64,000 nucleotides of DNA from Microbispora hainanensis (GTDB taxonomy: Bacteria; Actinomycetota; Actinomycetes; Streptosporangiales; Streptosporangiaceae): assembly GCF_036186745.1 (NCBI RefSeq), contig NZ_CP108086.1:372001-436000 (forward strand), read 5' to 3'. Below, one piece after another: positions 6,444 to 34,929 of the stretch (the stretch's first letter is position 1; each line of letters opens with the position of its first letter). The position numbers and the translations under genes were made by a program. The notes under the pieces are model-generated. The model saw nothing but the letters and a program-made list of their open reading frames with translations, had not been told where the DNA came from and searched no databases.

Positions 6444-7280
6444 TCACACCCTCCCGGTCAACTCGGTGATCGCCTCCGCGATGACCGGCCAGAGCGGGCG
6501 GGGCAGGTCGTGGCCCATTCCGGGGAAGGTCAGCAGCTTCGCGCCGGGGATGGCGTCCGCGGTCGCGGTCCCGCCTTCGAGGGTGACCAGCGGGTCGTCC
6601 TCGCCGTGGATCACCAGCGCGGGCACCGAGAGCCCGCGCAGCCCCTCCGTACGGTCGGCCGACCTCCGGATCGCGATGAACTGCCGGGCGGTGCCCGCGG
6701 GGTCGAACGCCCGGTCGTAGGCCTCCCCGGCCAGGCGGGTGATCCGCTCGACGTCCATCTCGTAGCCGGGAGAGCCGATGACCCGCGCGTTCTCCAGGGC
6801 GCGGACGATCGCCCCGTCGCGGTCCTGCGGGGCGGGCGCCGTCAGCGCAGCCATGGCCTCCTCGGTCGCCCGCCCCACGCGGGGCCCGGGGGTGGACATG
6901 ATCGAGGTCAGCGTACGGACCCGGGCGGGGTGGCGGATGGCGAGGGCCTGGGCGATCATGCCGCCCATCGACGCGCCCACCACGTGGGCGCTCTCCCAGC
7001 CCAGCACGTCCATCAGGCCGGCCGTGTCGTCGGCCATGTCGTCCAGGAGGTAGGAGGGGGCGGGCGCGTCGCCGTCCGCCGGGGTGAAGTGGGTGGACAG
7101 GCCCACGTCCCGGTTGTCGAACCGGACGACGCGGTGACCCGACTCCACGAGCAGGCCGATGAACTCCTCGGGCCAGCTGATCATCTGTGCTCCGAGCCCC
7201 ATGATGAGGACGACCGGACGTCCCCCGGGCTCGCCGAACACCTCGTAGCAGATCTCGATGCCGTTAGCCGTCGCACGCAT
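6444..7280 (-). CDS. Alpha/beta-fold hydrolase
   Basis: 278 aa from ATG 7280. Catalytic elements are visible: GASMGGMIA nucleophile elbow, Asp in HGEDDPLV, and His in PGMGHDLP. The N-terminus (ANGIEICYEVFG, VLIMGLGAQMISW) is typical of small actinobacterial esterases and lactonases. The substrate is unknown. It is transcribed divergently from the efflux gene at 7363, separated by 82 bp. Confidence 0.88.
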   Translation of the reverse strand: MRATANGIEICYEVFGEPGGRPVVLIMGLGAQMISWPEEFIGLLVESGHRVVRFDNRDVGLSTHFTPADGDAPAPSYLLDDMADDTAGLMDVLGWESAHVVGASMGGMIAQALAIRHPARVRTLTSIMSTPGPRVGRATEEAMAALTAPAPQDRDGAIVRALENARVIGSPGYEMDVERITRLAGEAYDRAFDPAGTARQFIAIRRSADRTEGLRGLSVPALVIHGEDDPLVTLEGGTATADAIPGAKLLTFPGMGHDLPRPLWPVIAEAITELTGRV

Positions 7281-12223: not shown

Positions 12224-13354
12224 TCACACGAGTACGCGCCTGCCCGCCTCCACCGGCGGCGGCAGGTGCACGCGGCCCAGCTCACGCAGGGCCCGGGCGG
12301 CACCCGTACGACGGGCCAGCGCGAGCGCCTGCCGGGCGAGGTCGGCCGCCTGGTCCCGCTCGTGCGCCTCGGCGTACGCGTGCGCCCTGCGGGCCAGCCC
12401 GTACGCGGCCAGATAGGCAGGCACGGACAGGGGCGGCTCGCTCTCAAGGATCTCGATCGCGCCTCCCGGCCGCCCGAGGTCGACCAGGCAGCCCGCGCAC
12501 AGCTCCGCCCCCGCCTCGCATTCCTCAAGGCAGCGGTGGCACGGCTCTATCTCGCCCGCCAGCGCGTGCGCCTGGGCCTCGTGCCGCCGGGACAGCGTGC
12601 CGACCTCGGCCGGGACCCCAGCACGCTCGCGGGCGGCCACGGCCGCCGCGACGATCTCGCCCGGCTCGGCGGCGTCGACCAGCCCGGCCCGCTGGACCAG
12701 CGCGAAGGCCTCGGTGAGAGGATCGCCGGTCTCGCGTGCCTCCCGGATCGCCCGGTCGGACCAGGCCCGCGCCCCCGGCGCGTCGCCCGCCTCGTGCCCC
12801 ATCCCGCTGATCAGCTCGGCGTCGCGGGCGGCGAGCGCGACCAGCGCACCCCGCACGGACGACCCGGCGTCGCGGCGGAACGCCTCGATGCCCGCGAAGA
12901 CGGGCCGCAGCGCCGCCACGAGATCGGCGGGCCGCGCGTACGGCGCGGCGCAGGCGTCGAGCATCCGCTCGAAGTAGCCGGCCGTGGCGGCGTCGGCGCG
13001 CCAGGGACGCTCGACGGCCCGGCCGACCCGCTCCTCCTCCTCTTCGGAGAACAGGCCCGGCATCAGCGGAATGCCGGTCAGGTGGTGCCACAGCACGGTG
13101 CCCGACGACGGACCGACGAACAGGTCCGCCTCGTCCATGCCGAAGACGCGGGACAGCAGCTCGACATGGCCGGGATCCGGCCGCCGCTCCCCCGTCTCCC
13201 ATGCGCGCACCGCCTCCGCGGGCGGGGGCTCGGTCTCCTGGGTCTCCTCCGCGGCCTCGTTCAGCCGTTCTTCCAGGTCCCGGCGCCTCCACAGGCGGCC
13301 GCGGCGCAGCGCTCGCAGCCGGGCGGCCCAGTGCGGGACGTCAATTCTGATCAT
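12224..13354 (-). CDS. XRE-type helix-turn-helix regulator with TPR-like C-terminus
   Basis: 376 aa from ATG 13354 behind GGGGGAG. The N-terminal 75 residues resemble an XRE HTH (WRRRDLEERLNEAAEE, VRAWETGERRPDPGHVELLSRVFGM). The remainder is Ala/Arg-rich and helical with repeating GDPLTEAFALVQRAGLV-type units like TPRs. This is the usual layout of actinobacterial XRE-TPR regulators. A Cys/His cluster (PCHRCLEECEAGAELCAGC) near residue 290 could bind a metal. Its target is unknown; it is divergent from the winged-helix gene at 13400. Confidence 0.75.
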   Translation of the reverse strand: MIRIDVPHWAARLRALRRGRLWRRRDLEERLNEAAEETQETEPPPAEAVRAWETGERRPDPGHVELLSRVFGMDEADLFVGPSSGTVLWHHLTGIPLMPGLFSEEEEERVGRAVERPWRADAATAGYFERMLDACAAPYARPADLVAALRPVFAGIEAFRRDAGSSVRGALVALAARDAELISGMGHEAGDAPGARAWSDRAIREARETGDPLTEAFALVQRAGLVDAAEPGEIVAAAVAARERAGVPAEVGTLSRRHEAQAHALAGEIEPCHRCLEECEAGAELCAGCLVDLGRPGGAIEILESEPPLSVPAYLAAYGLARRAHAYAEAHERDQAADLARQALALARRTGAARALRELGRVHLPPPVEAGRRVLV

Positions 13355-22543: not shown

Positions 22544-23851
22544 TCACAGCGACGGCAGGCCGTACTCCGCGTCGAGGTACCGCACCCGCCGGGCGGCCCG
22601 CGCCCGCGCCGGGGATCCGGCGGGCAGCGCGGCCAGCAGCGCCTGCCAGGCGACGATGTCGTCCCTCCCCCACGGCGCGCGCGTCCACCGTTCGAGCAGC
22701 GCGGGGTCGCGCCGGGCCACCAGCAGGTCGCGTACGCCGTCGTCGAGCAGGCGGCGCTGCCAGACGACGCCGGGCGCGTCCGAGCCGGGCAGGAGCGGCC
22801 CGCGATAGGCCCGCAGCGCGGCGTCGGCGTCCGCGGCGGCCAGGTGCTCGGCCAGTTCCTGGAAGTCGGCCCGCACCGGCACCCGCAGCCGGTACGGACG
22901 GGAGTCGAGCAGCGGGCCGAGCCGGTGGCGCAGCCGGGACAGCTCCGCGCGGAGCGTGACGGGGTTCAGCGCGCGGTCGCCGTACAGCTCCATGCTGAGC
23001 TGGTCGCTGCCCAGTCCCTCGGGGTGGCAGGCCAGCAGCACGACGATCTCGCTGTGCCGGGGGCCGAGCCTGATGCGGCGCGGGCCCTCGCCGAGCACGG
23101 CGTCGTCCCGGCCCAGGGCGGTGAGCGTCACGGCGGGCGCGAGATCCGGTGCCGGGAGGGTCGCCAGATGGGCCTCCGCCGCGCGGGCCGCCGCCTGCAC
23201 GAGGGCCAGGCTGTACGGGCTGGCCAGGTTGTCGCCGCCGGTCACGTCGACCGCGCCGAGCAGGTGGCCGGTGTGCGGGTCGTGGATCGGCGCGGCGGCG
23301 CAGGTCCACGGCTGCACCGGCACGGCGAAGTGCTCGGCCGCGAAGATCTGCACCGGATGGTCGACCGTGATCGCGACGCCGGGGGCGTTGGTGCCCGCGT
23401 GGGACTCGTCCCACCGGGCCCCGGCGACGAAGTTCATCCGCTCGGCCCGCGCCCGCGCCCCGCGATGGCCCTCGACCCACAGCAGCCGCCCGGCCGCGTC
23501 GCACACCGCGAGCAGGTGCCGCCCGTCGTCGGCGATGCCGCCCAGCAGGTCGCGGAACAGCGGCAGCACCTGGGCCAGCGGGTGCGCGCGGCGATACTCC
23601 TCCAGCTCGGCGTCGCTGAGCTCCAGCGGCGCGAGCGCGTCCGGATCGACGGCCCGCGCCGAGCGCCGCCACGAGTCCGCGACGACGGAGCGCACCGGGC
23701 CGTCGATCGGGCCGTCGATCACCCCGGCCGACAGGAAGCGTTCATGGGCGCGGCGCAGCTCACCGGTGCGTTCCGCAGCGTCGGCCCCGGACTCAAGCGC
23801 GAGCCATGGATTGGTCACGGCGCCCTCACTCTCCGCGTCTTCAGGCGCCAT
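22544..23851 (-). CDS. GAF-domain transcriptional regulator with C-terminal winged helix
   Basis: 435 aa from ATG 23851. Residues about 60-230 resemble the sensor part of AcoR-type activators (RSVVADSWRRSARAVDPD, ARWDESHAGTNAPGVAITVD, AAAPIHDPHTGHLLGAVDVTG) without a sigma54 AAA domain. The C-terminal LGPRHSEIVVLLACHPEGLGSDQL then RAELSRLRHRLG looks like a winged helix. In actinomycetes such regulators commonly neighbour ExaC-type aldehyde dehydrogenase plus DUF779, here 3 kb away. Control of that operon is an inference. Confidence 0.8.
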   Translation of the reverse strand: MAPEDAESEGAVTNPWLALESGADAAERTGELRRAHERFLSAGVIDGPIDGPVRSVVADSWRRSARAVDPDALAPLELSDAELEEYRRAHPLAQVLPLFRDLLGGIADDGRHLLAVCDAAGRLLWVEGHRGARARAERMNFVAGARWDESHAGTNAPGVAITVDHPVQIFAAEHFAVPVQPWTCAAAPIHDPHTGHLLGAVDVTGGDNLASPYSLALVQAAARAAEAHLATLPAPDLAPAVTLTALGRDDAVLGEGPRRIRLGPRHSEIVVLLACHPEGLGSDQLSMELYGDRALNPVTLRAELSRLRHRLGPLLDSRPYRLRVPVRADFQELAEHLAAADADAALRAYRGPLLPGSDAPGVVWQRRLLDDGVRDLLVARRDPALLERWTRAPWGRDDIVAWQALLAALPAGSPARARAARRVRYLDAEYGLPSL

Positions 23852-27998: not shown

Positions 27999-28925
27999 TC
28001 AGTCGGACATGGCCACGAGGATGCGGCGGGAGCCGGTGAAGGGCCTGCGGCCGTGCCCGACCAGCACGTTGTCGATCAGCAGCAGGTCGCCCTCCCGCCA
28101 GTCGACGTCCACCGCGTTGTCCAGGCCCCGGTCGCGCACCTGGATCACGTACTCGCCGGGGATCGGGGCGCCGTCGGGGAACGTCACCGACTGGGGCAGC
28201 TCCTCCGGCGGCATGAGTTCGGCGAGCATGGCGGCGGCCTCGTCGCCGATCGAGGCGGGATGCCACTGGTCGGCCTGGTTGAACCACACCTCGGCGCCGG
28301 TCACGGGATGGCGGGTGGTGGCCGGCCTGACCTGGGAGATCCGCACGCCGCCGTCGGGCCGCCACTGCCAGTCCGCGCCGATGCCGTCGAGGAACTCGGC
28401 CACCTGGTCGCGGTCCCCGGTCTCGAACGTCTCCTGCCAGCTCTTGCCGAGCCCGCGGCCGGCGTGGAGGTTCTGGGTGTAGCGCACGCCCTTGGCGAAG
28501 GCGTCCCTGACCTCGTCGTCGAGCGACTCCAGCCAGCGCACGCCGTCCACGACGGGGGTGGCCCCACCGGTCTCCGCCGCCTTCTCGCAGTAGAACAGCA
28601 GCCGCGAGGGCCAGGTGGCGGAGTAGGACAGCTCGTTGTGCATGGAGATCGTGTATTCGGGCGGATACTCGGTCGAGGTGTAGACGTTGCCGCCGACCTT
28701 GGTGCGGGGCGAGTTGCCGTGCACGTACGCCAGGCGGTTGGGCAGCAGCATGTCCATGACGGGATCGAGGGTCTCGGGCGTGACGCCGAACCCCCGGAAG
28801 ACGAGCGCCTTCTCGTGGACCAGCAGGTCGCCCACGTTCAGCTCGCGCAGCCGGTGCAGCAGCCCCTCGGGCGTGGCGGCGACGCCGTCCGGGGCTATTT
28901 CCAAGGGCTTCCAGAAGTCGTCCAT
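27999..28925 (-). CDS. TauD/TfdA-type Fe(II)/2-oxoglutarate dioxygenase (SyrP/AsnO-like)
   Basis: 308 aa from ATG 28925 behind GAAGGAGGACGC. The iron site is HxE rather than HxD (MHNELSYSATWPSRLLFYCE near residue 97), as in AsnO and clavaminate synthase. The distal His is in NVLVGHGRRPFTGSRRILVA and its Arg binds 2-oxoglutarate. Such enzymes beta-hydroxylate free or carrier-bound amino acids. Given the Asn-like code of the partner NRPS, 3-hydroxylation of Asn is an attractive inference. First gene of the minus-strand operon. Confidence 0.9.
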   Translation of the reverse strand: MDDFWKPLEIAPDGVAATPEGLLHRLRELNVGDLLVHEKALVFRGFGVTPETLDPVMDMLLPNRLAYVHGNSPRTKVGGNVYTSTEYPPEYTISMHNELSYSATWPSRLLFYCEKAAETGGATPVVDGVRWLESLDDEVRDAFAKGVRYTQNLHAGRGLGKSWQETFETGDRDQVAEFLDGIGADWQWRPDGGVRISQVRPATTRHPVTGAEVWFNQADQWHPASIGDEAAAMLAELMPPEELPQSVTFPDGAPIPGEYVIQVRDRGLDNAVDVDWREGDLLLIDNVLVGHGRRPFTGSRRILVAMSD

Positions 28926-29151: not shown

Positions 29152-29280
29152 CTGCTCATGTTCGGTCACCCGCAATCGCTGACGGAAGGTCGATTTCCCA
29201 ATACTCTGCGCACGTGATCGCAGGTGAAAGTGAGGCTTGCGTTACCCAGCGTGCATCCCGTATCGTAAAATAATCACTTT

Positions 29281-29298
29281 CGTGGGAGCGCTCCCACG
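29281..29298. promoter_or_regulatory. CebR/CelR-type LacI-family operator upstream of the NRPS gene
   Basis: CGTGGGAGC and GCTCCCACG make a perfect 18-bp palindrome containing TGGGAGCGCTCCCA. That 14-mer is the published binding site of CebR in Streptomyces and CelR in Thermobifida, LacI-family repressors released by cello-oligosaccharides. It lies directly after a -10-like TAAAAT (29266-29271), so a bound repressor would block NRPS transcription. No lacI-type gene is in the window, so the repressor must be encoded elsewhere. Confidence 0.8.
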
Positions 29299-29430: not shown

Positions 29431-32400
29431 GTGACGATAACGCCGACGACTGACAACGAGCATTTAATAGCGTCGCTTTCCCCACGCAGGCAGGAGGCGC
29501 TGCGCCGGCTGCTTGCGGCCAGGGCCGCCAAGGCCGCCGCCGCCAACGCGATCACCCCGCGCGGCGAGGGACCCGCCCCCTGCTCCTACGAGCAGACCCA
29601 GATGTGGCTCGGCGCCCGCTTCGCCGAGGGCGCCCCGGCGCCCAACGCCACGATCGGCCTGCGGCTCACCGGCCCGCTCGACCTCCGGGCCCTGACCATC
29701 GCCCTGGACAGCCTGGTCGAACGCCACGAGATCCTGCGTACGGTCTACGAGGGCGACGGGCACGAGCCCCGGCAGGTCATCCTCGACCCCGGGCCCGCGC
29801 CGCTCGACGTCGTGGACCTGCGGGAGCTGCCGGAGGCCGAGCGGGAGGCCCGGGCCCGGGAGATCACGTGCAGGGCCGCCGTCGAACGCTTCGACCTCGA
29901 GGCCGGGCCGGTCCACCGTACGACGCTGGTGCGGCTGGCCGACGAGGACCACGTGCTGATGTTCGTCTGCCACCACATCGCGTGCGACGGGTGGTCGGTC
30001 GGCATCATCGTGGACGAGCTGACCAGCGTGTACGCGTCCGCCCACGAGGGCAGGCCCGCCGAGGTGACCGCGCCCCCGCTCCAGTACGCCGACTACGCGG
30101 CCTGGTCGCGGCGTGAGCTGACCGGCGAGCAGCGCGAGCGGCGGCTCGCCCACTGGCGCGACCGGCTCGACGGCGCGAGCGCGGTGGAGCTGCCCATCGC
30201 GCGGGACGGCCAGGCCGTCACCGAGGGCAACCGGAGCGACTGCCACCTGTTCACGCTGCCGGAGGAGGTCCTGCGGGCGCTGCGGGAGGCCGGCGGCCCC
30301 GGGACCACCCCGTTCGTGGCCCTGCTCACGGTCTTCTCGATGCTGCTCGCGCGATACACCGGGCAGGGCGACCTGACGATCGCCACGGTGGACGGCGGGC
30401 GGCGCCGCGTGGAGCTGGAGCCGGTGCTGGGCTGCTTCGTCAACGCCCTGCCGCTGCGCGCCGACCTGTCCGGCGACCCGTCGTTCCGGGAGGCGGCGGC
30501 CGGGATCCGGCGCAGGCTCGGCGAGGCGCTCGCCAACCACCTGCCGTTCTCGGAGCTGGCCGGGGCGCTGAGCGACCGGGACGCCCGCAACTTCTCGCTG
30601 TCGACCGTCGGCTTCTCGCTGCGCGTCTTCCGCGACCAGCGCGGGCGCTGGCCCGGGCTGGAGGCGTCGGTCTGGGAGCACGAGGTCGACGACTTCACCT
30701 ACGACCTCGCGCTGCTGGTGCACCTGAACGGCGCCGGCGACCCCGAGCTCTACCTGACCTACCAGAAGGACCGGTTCGACGCCGACGCCGTCGCCCGGAT
30801 GGCCGGGCACTACCGGGCGCTGGCCGAGCGCATCGCCGCCGCCCCGGACACCCCGCTGGCCGGCCTGGAGCTGCTCACCGACGCCGAGCGCGAGGTGGTG
30901 CTGGACGACTGGAACGACTCGGCCCGGCCCTACCCGGACGTCGCCCTGCCCGAGCTGCTGGAGCGCCACGCGGACTCCGACGCGGTCGCGGTCGCCTTCG
31001 AGGGCCGCACGACCACCTACGCCGAGCTGCACGCCCGCGCCAACCAGGTCGCTCACCTGCTGCGCGAGCGGGGCATCGGCCCGGAGGACACGGTGGGCGT
31101 GCTGCTCGACCGGAGCCCGGATCTCATCGCCTGCCTGCTTGGCGTGTGGAAGGCGGGCGCGGCCTACCTGCCGATGGATCCCAAGTTCCCCGCACAGCGC
31201 GTGCACGACATGCTGTCGATCGCCGCGACCCCGCTGGTCCTGACCTCAGCGGGTTACGCGCATCTGTTCGAGGGCGTCGAGGTGGTCGACGTGGGCGGCG
31301 GCCTGCTCGACGGGCAGCCGCGCGACCCGGTCGGCGTGCCGTACGACATCGACCGGCTGGCGTATGTGATCTTCACCTCGGGATCGACGGGCAAGCCGAA
31401 GGGCGTGCAGGTCACCCACCGCGGGCTGGTGAACCACGTGTGGTGGGCCGTGGAGGACCTGGCGTCCCAGGGCGACGGCGGCGCGCCGCTGTTCGGCTCG
31501 GTGGCGTTCGACCTCGTGGTGCCCAACCTGTGGGCGCCGCTCGTCACAGGCCACCGGGTCACCGTGCTGCCGCAGGACTTCGACATGGGCGAGCTGGGCT
31601 CGCTGCTGGTGGCGGGCGGGCCGTACGCCTTCATCAAGTGCACCCCCGGGCACCTGGAGGTGCTCGGTCACCAGATCGACGCCCGGCAGGCCGCCGCGCT
31701 CGCCGGGAAGATCGTCGTCGCGGGCGAGGCGCTGCCCGGCTCGATGGCCAACCGCTGGCTGGAGATGCTCGGCCCGGGCCGGCTGATCAACGAGTACGGC
31801 CCCACCGAGGCGTCGGTCGGCACGTGCATCTATCCCGTGCGGGACGCCCAGCTCGTGGAGGTCGTCCCGATCGGGCGCCCGCTGCCCAACATGCGGATGT
31901 ACGTCCTGGACGCCAACCGCCGGCTGCAGCCGGTCGGCGTGCCGGGCGAGCTGTACGTCGGCGGCGTGGGCGTGACCCGCGGGTACATGAACCGGCCGGA
32001 CCTCACCGAGGAACGGTTCCTGCCGGATCCCTTCAACCCGGGCGGCCGGATGTACCGCACCGGCGACCGGGTGGCCTGGACCCGCGACGGGAACGTGGCC
32101 TTCCTGGGCCGGTTCGACGACCAGGTGAAGATCCGCGGCTACCGCATCGAGCTGGACGAGGTGCGGGCGGCCGTCCTCGATCACCCCGGGGTGCGCGACG
32201 CGGTCGTCACCGTCCACGCGTTCACCTCCGAGGACAAGCGGCTCGTCGCCTACTACGTCCCCACCGGTCCGGAGCTGTCCGATCTGGCGGACCACTGCGC
32301 GGAACGGCTGCCGGACTACATGGTCCCGTCGGTGTTCGTGCCGCTTGCGACCATCCCGCTCAACGCCAACGGCAAGGTGGACCGCAAGGCGCTGCCCGAT

Positions 32401-34929
32401 CCGGTGGTCCGGGTGGGCGACGACCTGGCCGAGCCGACGACCGAGACCGAGATCGTGGTGGCCGGGGTCTGGCGGGAGGTCCTCGGCATCGACGCCGTCT
32501 CGATCGACGCCGACTTCAACGCGCTCGGCGGCCACTCGCTGCTGCTCATCCGCATGGTCGCCAAGCTGCGCCAGGCGCTGCCCTCCGGCGGCTACCAGGT
32601 GACCGTGCTCGACGCGATCGCCAACCGCACCGTGCGCGAGCTGGCCGCGGTGATCGACGCCGCCAACGGCACCCCGGAGAGCACCGCCGAGGAGGGCCCG
32701 CGCGGCCTGCTGGTCGAGCTCACCCGGCCCATCAAGACGTCGGCGCTGTCGCTCGTCTGCATCCCGTACGGCGGGGCCAGCGCGATGGTCTACCAGCCGC
32801 TGGCCGACGCGCTGCCGGACGGCCACTCGCTGTTCGCGGTCGCCCTGCCCGGCCACGAGCTGGGCGTCGAGGAGAGCACGATTCCGTTCCACGAGGCCGC
32901 CCAGCGGGTCTGCGACGAGGTGGTCGAGCGCGTGCGCGGCCCGGTCGCGTTGTACGGCCACTGCGTCGGCAGCGCGCTGACCGCCGAGATCGCGCGGCGT
33001 CTTGAGGCCGCCGGGCGGCGCGTGGAGGCCGTCTACATGGGCGGCAGCTTCCCGTTCGCCACCCCCACCAAGGGCCTGAACGGCCTGCTCGGGCGCATCT
33101 TCCGCAGCAAGGCGCTGGACAACGCCAACGCGCACGCCAACTGGCTGCGCGCGATGGGCGCCGATCTCCAGGACCTCGAACCCGAGCAGGTCGACCACAT
33201 CATCCGCACCATGCGCGTGGACGCGCGGGCCGGTGAGGACTACTTCAGCGAGCTCGTGGAGCGGCAGAGCCCGCAGCTGCGCGCCCCGGTGATCTCGATC
33301 GTCGGCGACCGCGACGCGCTGACCGACTTCTACCAGGAGCGCTACCGCGACTGGCACTGCGTCTCCGAGACCACGGCACTGGTCGTGATGGCCGAGGCAG
33401 GCCACTACTTCCTCCGCTATCGCACCGAGGAACTGGCCGCGATCGTCACGACCACCCACGCCGCCGTCGAACGCCCCGGAGAGTGGCGGCCACGCCCACC
33501 CGAGGACCCGGCGACGTGGTGGCGGCAGGCGCTGTCCACCGACCGGAAGGCCGACGTCGCCGGGCCGCAACCCAGCCTGGGCCGGTTCTTCACGGTGGCG
33601 ACCGGTCAGATCGTCTCCATGATCGGCGCCGTGATGACCGAGTTCGCCGTGCCGATCTGGGCGTACCTGAAGAGCGGCTCGCTGGTGCAGTTCGGCCTGT
33701 TCGCCATCATCGGGCTGGTGCCGGGGCTCGTCCTCGCGCCGCTGATCGGCGCGCTCGTCGACCGCTACGACCGCAAGCGGGCGATGCTGGCCGCCGACGG
33801 CCTGTCGCTGGCCGTGCAGGCCGCGCTGCTCGCCCTGATGGCCGGCGACGTGCTGAGCATGCCCCTGCTGTACGGCCTGCTGGTCGTGCTGTCGATATCG
33901 GTGACCCTGCAACGGGTGGCCTGGCAGTCGGCCGGTCCGCAGCTCGCGCCCAAGCACTATCTGCATCACGTCGGCGGCGTCGTCCAGCTCGGCAACGCCG
34001 TGGCCCAGCTCATGGTGCCGCTGTTCTCGGTCGCCGTGCTGGCGCTGATCGGCATCGAGGGCATCCTGACCGCCAACGTGGTCTGTTACGCGATCGCGTT
34101 CACCGTGACCCTGCTCGTGCGCTTCCCGGCCACGATGGCCTGGCGGCGCCGTGAGACGGTCTCCGCCGAGATCCGCAACGGCTTCCGCTATCTGCTGCGA
34201 CGGCGGGGCCTGCGGGCCATGGCCTTCACGATGTTCATCGTGAACTTCTTCCTGTTCACCGGGTTCATCATGATCTCGCCGCTGGTGCTGTCGGTCGGCG
34301 AGCTGGCCGACACCGGGCGGGTGGCGCTGCTCGCCGGGATCGGGGCGGTCTGCGGCGGCCTGATCATCACGCTGTGGGGCGGCCCGCGCGACCGCCGGAT
34401 GTTCGGCATGCTGGCGGCCGCCGGCGTGCTGGGGATCTTCTGCGCGATCGCCGGCCTGCGCCCGTCGCTCGTCCTCATCACGATCGGCGCCTTCGGGATG
34501 TCGCTGATGATGACGATCAGCGACGGCATCTGGCTGACGATCATCCACTCGAAGGTGCCCCAGCGCTACCACGCCCGGGTCATCGCGATCAACCGGATGC
34601 TCGCGCTGTCGACCCAGCCGGTCGGCCTCGCCGTACAGGCCTGGCTGGTGGGGCTGCTCTTCGAGCCGCTGATGCGGCCGGACGGCCCGCTGGCCGGCAC
34701 GGTCGGCAAGGTGATCGGCGTCGGCGAGGGCCGCGGCATCGGCCTGCTGTACGTCGTGTGCGGCCTGGCCATCGCACTCACGATCACGCTGGCCCTGCGG
34801 CACCCGGCCCTGGCGAGGTTCGACCAGGAGACCCCGGACGCCGAGCCGGACGACCTGGTCGGCCTGGAGGCGCTGCGCAGCCGCCAGGAGGCGAGCGTCC
34901 CGCCGCCACGGGTCCCGGCCGAGCTGTGA
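29431..34929 (+). CDS. Single-module NRPS (C-A-PCP-TE) fused to an MFS exporter
   Basis: 1832 aa; GTG 29431 is chosen for AGAGGAGA just upstream. Condensation domain about 40-470 with intact HHIACDG near 181. Adenylation domain about 490-990 (FTSGSTGKPKG near 647, YGPTE near 788, KIRGYRIE near 900, NGKVDRK near 978). My reading of its ten-residue code is DLPKVAEVGK, closest to the Asn code DLTKLGEVGK. Carrier domain near 1035 (LGGHSLL). Thioesterase about 1100-1340 with YGHCVGS near 1176, so Cys replaces the nucleophilic Ser; Asp (GDRDALTD) and His (EAGHYF) are present. Residues about 1383-1810 are a 12-helix MFS transporter (EntS-like type). It thus makes, releases and perhaps exports a product from one polypeptide. 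Confidence 0.93.
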   Translation: MTITPTTDNEHLIASLSPRRQEALRRLLAARAAKAAAANAITPRGEGPAPCSYEQTQMWLGARFAEGAPAPNATIGLRLTGPLDLRALTIALDSLVERHEILRTVYEGDGHEPRQVILDPGPAPLDVVDLRELPEAEREARAREITCRAAVERFDLEAGPVHRTTLVRLADEDHVLMFVCHHIACDGWSVGIIVDELTSVYASAHEGRPAEVTAPPLQYADYAAWSRRELTGEQRERRLAHWRDRLDGASAVELPIARDGQAVTEGNRSDCHLFTLPEEVLRALREAGGPGTTPFVALLTVFSMLLARYTGQGDLTIATVDGGRRRVELEPVLGCFVNALPLRADLSGDPSFREAAAGIRRRLGEALANHLPFSELAGALSDRDARNFSLSTVGFSLRVFRDQRGRWPGLEASVWEHEVDDFTYDLALLVHLNGAGDPELYLTYQKDRFDADAVARMAGHYRALAERIAAAPDTPLAGLELLTDAEREVVLDDWNDSARPYPDVALPELLERHADSDAVAVAFEGRTTTYAELHARANQVAHLLRERGIGPEDTVGVLLDRSPDLIACLLGVWKAGAAYLPMDPKFPAQRVHDMLSIAATPLVLTSAGYAHLFEGVEVVDVGGGLLDGQPRDPVGVPYDIDRLAYVIFTSGSTGKPKGVQVTHRGLVNHVWWAVEDLASQGDGGAPLFGSVAFDLVVPNLWAPLVTGHRVTVLPQDFDMGELGSLLVAGGPYAFIKCTPGHLEVLGHQIDARQAAALAGKIVVAGEALPGSMANRWLEMLGPGRLINEYGPTEASVGTCIYPVRDAQLVEVVPIGRPLPNMRMYVLDANRRLQPVGVPGELYVGGVGVTRGYMNRPDLTEERFLPDPFNPGGRMYRTGDRVAWTRDGNVAFLGRFDDQVKIRGYRIELDEVRAAVLDHPGVRDAVVTVHAFTSEDKRLVAYYVPTGPELSDLADHCAERLPDYMVPSVFVPLATIPLNANGKVDRKALPDPVVRVGDDLAEPTTETEIVVAGVWREVLGIDAVSIDADFNALGGHSLLLIRMVAKLRQALPSGGYQVTVLDAIANRTVRELAAVIDAANGTPESTAEEGPRGLLVELTRPIKTSALSLVCIPYGGASAMVYQPLADALPDGHSLFAVALPGHELGVEESTIPFHEAAQRVCDEVVERVRGPVALYGHCVGSALTAEIARRLEAAGRRVEAVYMGGSFPFATPTKGLNGLLGRIFRSKALDNANAHANWLRAMGADLQDLEPEQVDHIIRTMRVDARAGEDYFSELVERQSPQLRAPVISIVGDRDALTDFYQERYRDWHCVSETTALVVMAEAGHYFLRYRTEELAAIVTTTHAAVERPGEWRPRPPEDPATWWRQALSTDRKADVAGPQPSLGRFFTVATGQIVSMIGAVMTEFAVPIWAYLKSGSLVQFGLFAIIGLVPGLVLAPLIGALVDRYDRKRAMLAADGLSLAVQAALLALMAGDVLSMPLLYGLLVVLSISVTLQRVAWQSAGPQLAPKHYLHHVGGVVQLGNAVAQLMVPLFSVAVLALIGIEGILTANVVCYAIAFTVTLLVRFPATMAWRRRETVSAEIRNGFRYLLRRRGLRAMAFTMFIVNFFLFTGFIMISPLVLSVGELADTGRVALLAGIGAVCGGLIITLWGGPRDRRMFGMLAAAGVLGIFCAIAGLRPSLVLITIGAFGMSLMMTISDGIWLTIIHSKVPQRYHARVIAINRMLALSTQPVGLAVQAWLVGLLFEPLMRPDGPLAGTVGKVIGVGEGRGIGLLYVVCGLAIALTITLALRHPALARFDQETPDAEPDDLVGLEALRSRQEASVPPPRVPAEL

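Follow-up and report, generated by a model that had tools for sequence, protein, structure and literature searches.

An exact CebR/CelR-type operator conserved before a nonribosomal peptide synthetase gene of Microbispora hainanensis and its relatives, and a probable link to cello-oligosaccharide sensing

Many biosynthetic gene clusters of actinomycetes are silent in the laboratory, and the trigger that would activate them is unknown. The closest described system is the thaxtomin (txt) cluster of Streptomyces scabiei, a nonribosomal peptide synthetase (NRPS) cluster under the control of the cellobiose-responsive repressor CebR, which acts through sites of the TGGGAGCGCTCCCA type (PMC5332605, PMC8914351, PMC12527672). 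The txt sites are described as imperfect (CGGGAGCGCTCCCA and GGGGAGCGCTCCCA), with positions 786 to 900 nt ahead of txtR/txtA or within txtB, and serve to switch off the activator TxtR. The consensus TGGGAGCGCTCCCA is published as the CebR/CelR operator (PMC5332605, PMC4898821), as is release by cello-oligosaccharides (PMC5332605, PMC8914351, PMC4898821, PMC3377646); according to the model, the repressor sits on the palindrome until cellobiose or cellotriose, brought in through CebEFG, releases it (PMC8914351, PMC3377646). In the CebR rows of a curated table, thaxtomin is the only cluster listed (PMC12527672). Most cello-oligosaccharide-responsive clusters of S. scabiei are reported to be CebR independent (PMC8914351), and rotihibin likewise responds to these sugars, apparently without direct control by CebR (PMC8552735). 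A survey from 2012 placed CelR sites near pyruvate-dehydrogenase-related genes in Streptosporangium roseum and raised secondary metabolism in general, citing one site that lies within an Actinosynnema mirum polyketide synthase gene (PMC3377646). No NRPS is named in the passages concerned, and the words "synthetase" and "nonribosomal" do not occur in the main text.

Here, we describe a site of this kind in a stretch of 64,000 nucleotides from Microbispora hainanensis, referred to as the window (positions 372001 to 436000 of a single-contig genome of 8.80 Mb, all of which was searched). The original prediction, which took thaxtomin as its precedent, claimed a perfect 18-bp palindrome with the known CebR/CelR operator inside it, about 130 bp before an NRPS gene, here termed NRPS1. 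All three statements were borne out: the palindrome reads CGTGGGAGCGCTCCCACG, its core matches the published consensus without a mismatch, and 135 bp separate the 14-mer from the GTG at 29431. This GTG is the best-placed start, being preceded by GAGAGGAG, within a longer mechanical open reading frame that runs in frame from 29383. The operator lies outside the called genes, and the window contains no other exact match. The scan also returned a two-mismatch match at 6985; the total of two matches with up to two mismatches compares with a mean of 0.68 in shuffled sequences, 15 of 100 of which gave two or more. In contrast to the imperfect txt sites, the NRPS1 site is exact and lies 135 bp before the synthetase gene. 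No AraC/XylS-type, TxtR-like activator is present among the four cluster genes; a GAF-domain gene is located nearby (22544-23722), with two other genes between it and the cluster in locus L072.

The palindrome had been placed immediately after a -10-like TAAAAT. This hexamer does precede the box (29266-29271), yet 11 bp lie between its end and the 14-mer, and it lacks conservation; we rejected it in favor of TATCGT on the basis of an alignment of 12 Microbispora loci. As judged by eye, TTGCGT and TATCGT with a spacer of 17 to 18 nt are kept in all 12 (Table 1). A consensus promoter scanner reported no promoter, so that the evidence for this candidate element is its conservation. If it is used, we infer that the operator covers about +10 to +23.

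Table 1. Features of the NRPS1 locus, with window coordinates, and distribution of exact 14-mer sites in the genome
Feature	Position	Strand	Basis or remark
CebR/CelR operator TGGGAGCGCTCCCA, exact 14-mer	29283..29296	.	Core of 18-bp palindrome 29281-29298
Candidate NRPS1 promoter, TTGCGT (29237-29242), 18 nt, TATCGT (29261-29266)	29237..29266	+	Conservation, alignment by eye
NRPS1, 1,832 aa: condensation, adenylation, carrier protein, thioesterase, C-terminal MFS fusion	29431..34929	+	Pfam, motifs
TauD/TfdA-type dioxygenase, 308 aa, divergent from NRPS1	27999..28925	-	Pfam
FkbH-domain (HAD-IIIC) protein with C-terminal carrier domain, 694 aa	25887..27971	-	
EryCIII-like glycosyltransferase, 428 aa	24595..25881	-	
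Window, before NRPS1			One exact site
GH6+CBM2 genes			Two exact sites, one common to malate dehydrogenase gene, the other to GGDEF-EAL gene
GH9+CBM2 gene			One exact site
GH48+CBM2 gene			One exact site, adjoining a one-mismatch site
Divergent PL8/Cip1-like pair			One exact site
HATPase-domain gene			One exact site; the aldose epimerase gene across from it has the wrong orientation
cebEFG-GH1-LacI operon (L053)			Two exact sites, 120 bp apart
LacI-Ser/Thr kinase pair (L052)			Two exact sites
LuxR-type regulator beside polyketide synthase (L046)			One exact site
Second NRPS locus			Two exact sites, one preceding E1-alpha and one an aldose epimerase
LPMO gene vicinity (L055)			One exact site

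The thioesterase domain of NRPS1 contains a GHCVG motif with Cys in the nucleophile position, as does its Herbidospora counterpart. The adenylation-domain codes are DLPKVAEV for NRPS1 and DFTKLGHV for NRPS2, the synthetase of a second locus described below, and both appear to be Asp/Asn-like. In Herbidospora, the NRPS1 orthologue (63% identity) is followed by genes for a carrier protein, a GT4 glycosyltransferase, E1-alpha, E1-beta, E2, and GH1, after which come a further exact box and the genes for an aldose epimerase and a kinase. No FkbH protein was recognized at that locus, where the carrier part alone matches (57%), and none of the 120 listed matches of the Microbispora FkbH protein has the name of a characterized protein. 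The NRPS1 product is predicted from the adenylation-domain code to have an Asp/Asn-type residue and may undergo hydroxylation by TauD and glycosylation.

The exact 14-mer was found upstream of NRPS1 in all 20 named relatives (11 Microbispora, 2 Planobispora, and 7 Herbidospora). With the window and three loci of the Acrocarpospora type, a genus name deduced for the common genus label g28, the count is 24 of 24, and with a further locus (L179), it is 25 of 25 NRPS1 promoters; these loci are samples reached via NRPS1 or its neighbors, and a box-less orthologue could be missed for this reason. In an ungapped comparison of 23 loci, the box was 100% identical and the 40-bp flanks showed 18 to 35% identity between genera, the exception being positions -40 to -1 in Herbidospora and the Acrocarpospora type (61%). 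The outer letters that complete the 18-mer vary in the relatives. The TauD gene of the cluster was found in 14 of 15 Microbispora genomes, the one exception being a 92%-complete assembly of about 810 contigs. In Herbidospora and the Acrocarpospora type, a glycosyltransferase gene rather than TauD is located on the other side of the box, which still precedes NRPS1.

Searching the whole genome for the 14-mer had been proposed as a check, and its distribution is nonrandom and marks a cellulose utilization regulon. There are 15 exact matches and 20 within one mismatch, compared with 3 within one mismatch for a reversed-pattern control and about 0.12 exact sites per genome expected from base composition. 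Each of 15 Microbispora genomes, this one included, has 11 to 16 exact sites, and the reversed pattern gave none in any of the 15. All 15 exact sites of this genome are outside called genes, and 13 have a called start no more than 281 bp downstream. The other two (L052:9001 and L055:6001) stand before no called gene, and for this reason an exact site by itself is no proof of regulation. Eight of the 15 are located upstream of cellulase, polysaccharide-lyase, cellobiose uptake, or aldose epimerase genes (Table 1), and the cellulase genes concerned belong to GH6, GH6, GH9, and GH48. With the same operator at these genes and kept at the orthologous gene in relatives, the NRPS1 site fits a CebR/CelR regulon. 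Both the 14-mer and the kinds of targets (GH6, GH9, GH48, and cebEFG-bglC-cebR) are those of the Thermobifida CelR and Streptomyces CebR regulons; in contrast to these, the Microbispora regulon also includes two NRPS loci that are conserved across genera.

At least 37 LacI-type genes are encoded in the genome (150 of 198 first-look candidates were scored). As originally stated, the window has no LacI gene (0 of the 37 listed), and control in the present strain would accordingly be in trans. A CebR/CelR-type gene is present elsewhere, as the last gene of the cebEFG-GH1-LacI operon (start near 13014 of locus L053); the ceb and CebR names used here derive from operon context and gene starts. The recognition helix GRGTVSR is shared by 118 of the 120 listed homologues of this CebR candidate (116 by pattern and 2 by reading the first residues), with the helix region missing or altered in the other 2, and no characterized protein is named among these 120. 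In three Acrocarpospora-type loci (L114, L115, and L167), boxes, cebEFG, GH1, and cebR directly precede the NRPS1 cluster, and cebEFG-bglC-cebR adjoins the cluster in four of the five loci of this type that were read, the fourth being L180 (G041:C51:80001-100000). L180 has an exact box before the carrier protein gene and retains the other cluster genes, and no NRPS1 was called between the carrier protein gene and the divergent glycosyltransferase gene. At L179, a boxed NRPS1 cluster is present, and the 20 kb examined contain no ceb operon. Seven clusters of other genomes were inspected over 40 kb; cebR adjoins two of them (L161/162 and L167/168) and was not seen in five.

Because it has the exact published sequence and is conserved before NRPS1 in four genera, the palindrome is a likely CebR operator, and we consider it very probable from the DNA that CebR represses NRPS1 directly at this site until cellobiose or cellotriose is taken up. 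The cebR product would bind at the putative promoter and block initiation or clearance of NRPS1; cello-oligosaccharides would release CebR, and NRPS1, perhaps together with the divergent TauD-FkbH-glycosyltransferase operon, would then be transcribed. A glycosylated, Asp/Asn-type peptide would be made and exported through the fused MFS domain, and as such, the NRPS1 product would be a cellulose-triggered metabolite. A variant in which the box chiefly controls the divergent operon, or acts in both directions, is conceivable though rather unlikely. The box does lie between divergent genes, at a distance of 358 bp from the TauD start, and L180 keeps it without a called NRPS; however, NRPS1 is closer and the box is just downstream of the NRPS1-directed promoter-like element, and where TauD has been swapped for a glycosyltransferase, it is before NRPS1 that the box has stayed.

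It is less probable still, and in our view doubtful, that the main binder is another LacI-family repressor, either a CebR paralogue or the protein termed LacI2 (L052), in which case the inducer may be a compound other than cellobiose. The large number of LacI genes and the exact box 32 bp before the start of LacI2 itself speak for such a repressor, as do the DNA-binding domains, which were read for 31 of the 37: one other protein (L029) has the helix SRGTVSR, with the same R-G pair, and three (L022, L028, and L030) have SRATVSR. On the other hand, the gene of the L022 paralogue has a different palindrome, GGAGAGCGCTCTCC, just upstream, which has been reported as a separate operator before the second ceb-type operon of S. 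roseum (PMC3377646), and among the LacI proteins read, only the cebEFG-linked one combines GRGTVSR, two exact operon boxes, and linkage to boxed NRPS clusters. A chance palindrome was rejected on the genome and genus counts and the cross-genus conservation. That the box is a chance or leftover sequence without function at NRPS1 is accordingly a very remote prospect, for although no target gene is evident at 2 of the 15 exact sites, all 25 promoters have kept the box in mostly diverged flanks, and about 0.12 sites would be expected per genome.

The Microbispora counterparts of the E1, E2, GH1, epimerase, and kinase genes of Herbidospora are located at 7.23 Mb (43 to 72% identity), where they adjoin a second NRPS cluster, one that encodes condensation, adenylation, carrier, and MbtH proteins. 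The cebR gene is about 2 kb, or two called genes, from the far end of this cluster. A family search with E1-alpha gave matches in 66 of 200 genomes, and we retrieved 30 loci. In 20 of these, NRPS2 is divergent from E1-alpha (L146 and loci of the series L125 to L144), and 19 of the 20 have an exact box and a one-mismatch box 197 to 200 bp apart, the one-mismatch box standing alone in L146. By eye, each box of the pair is beside its own promoter-like element. More distant NRPS2 loci (48 to 49% identity) have two boxes separated by 229 bp (L176) and 207 bp (L181). It is of note that the spacing of 197 to 200 bp holds over several genera though a large part of the intervening DNA has diverged. DNA looping between the paired boxes is not claimed here, as a promoter-like element for each box can explain the spacing.

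Related clusters without the box were also found. Among 12 loci (L173, L174, L175, L178, and L182 to L189) in which genes for adenylation and condensation run on one strand into those for E1-alpha, E1-beta, and E2, none has a box within one mismatch in the 14 to 20 kb read; one of them, L178 (4.00 to 4.02 Mb), is a third E1/E2-NRPS cluster of the same genome. A hybrid architecture, in which carrier protein and glycosyltransferase genes are divergent from another NRPS gene, is boxed in L177 and L190 and box-less in L171, and L171 and L177 have the same genus label. In L172, an exact box precedes GH1, and there is none at the divergent promoter. TauD was rejected as a predictor of the box, since 9 of 11 contexts of TauD homologues (L116 to L124, about 50 to 76% identity) are box-less within one mismatch. 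From these clusters and TauD settings, it follows that the box marks a CebR-linked subset and not the enzyme families generally.

A broader reading, for and against which we see the balance as even, is that a peptide-type pathway is a core member of the cellulose utilization regulon in the Streptosporangiaceae. The cebEFG operon, its repressor, and the NRPS cluster would form a "feed-and-compete" unit with which a glycosylated peptide is made on plant litter, and in Microbispora this unit would be divided between two box-controlled loci. The cluster so defined comprises the NRPS, a carrier protein, two glycosyltransferases, a 2-oxoacid-dehydrogenase-like E1/E2 trio, a beta-glucosidase, an aldose epimerase, and a sugar kinase, and the in-cluster beta-glucosidase would act on the glycosylated peptide or its precursor.

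In a literature search whose coverage left out most subscription journals, we recognized no paper on the boxed NRPS system; the nearest was the 2012 survey, and by their description there, the S. roseum loci with CelR sites are probable homologues of the E1-alpha locus and of the L052 gene pair (PMC3377646). New with respect to that work are the identity of the NRPS, the cross-genus conservation, the linkage to cebR, the division over two loci in Microbispora, and the control clusters that lack the box. The divergent operon, the second boxed NRPS cluster, and the cross-genus conservation also go beyond the original prediction. The DNA points to a cheap trigger, cellobiose or cellotriose, and removal of cebR is predicted to switch on two cryptic Microbispora NRPS loci and related loci in other genera. 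If this is true, the system would be a second case, one that is conserved, lies outside Streptomyces, and is tied to cebR itself, and the step from plant-polymer sensing to a metabolite would be no quirk of a pathogen.

Several other sites of the genome are worth describing. Locus L052 (positions 9001 and 11528; genome 4.15 Mb) consists of a LacI gene and a Ser/Thr kinase gene, with the second exact box after the kinase gene. S. roseum and T. bispora are reported to have similar LacI-kinase pairs (PMC3377646), and the L052 pair is possibly a second layer of cellobiose signaling. In L055 (6001-6140; genome 7557399), an exact box has a possible -10 element, TAGGGT, just 5' of it and a strong inverted repeat within about 130 bp. 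The LPMO gene, which is on the other strand, was rejected as a target because the box lies past its 3' end; the element is possibly a CebR-controlled short RNA or peptide, or merely the LPMO terminator. At L046:6001 (genome 304676), an exact box lies between two divergent LuxR-type regulator genes adjoining a large type I polyketide synthase gene. The larger regulator was matched in just 2 of 15 Microbispora genomes, one of the matches being partial, and we therefore rejected this polyketide cluster as a third conserved target. Finally, a one-mismatch box, TGGAAGCGCTCCCA, is found upstream of a second ceb-like operon (L058; genome 3.96 Mb), which by its gene starts putatively encodes a solute-binding protein, two permeases, a GH1 enzyme, and a LacI protein.
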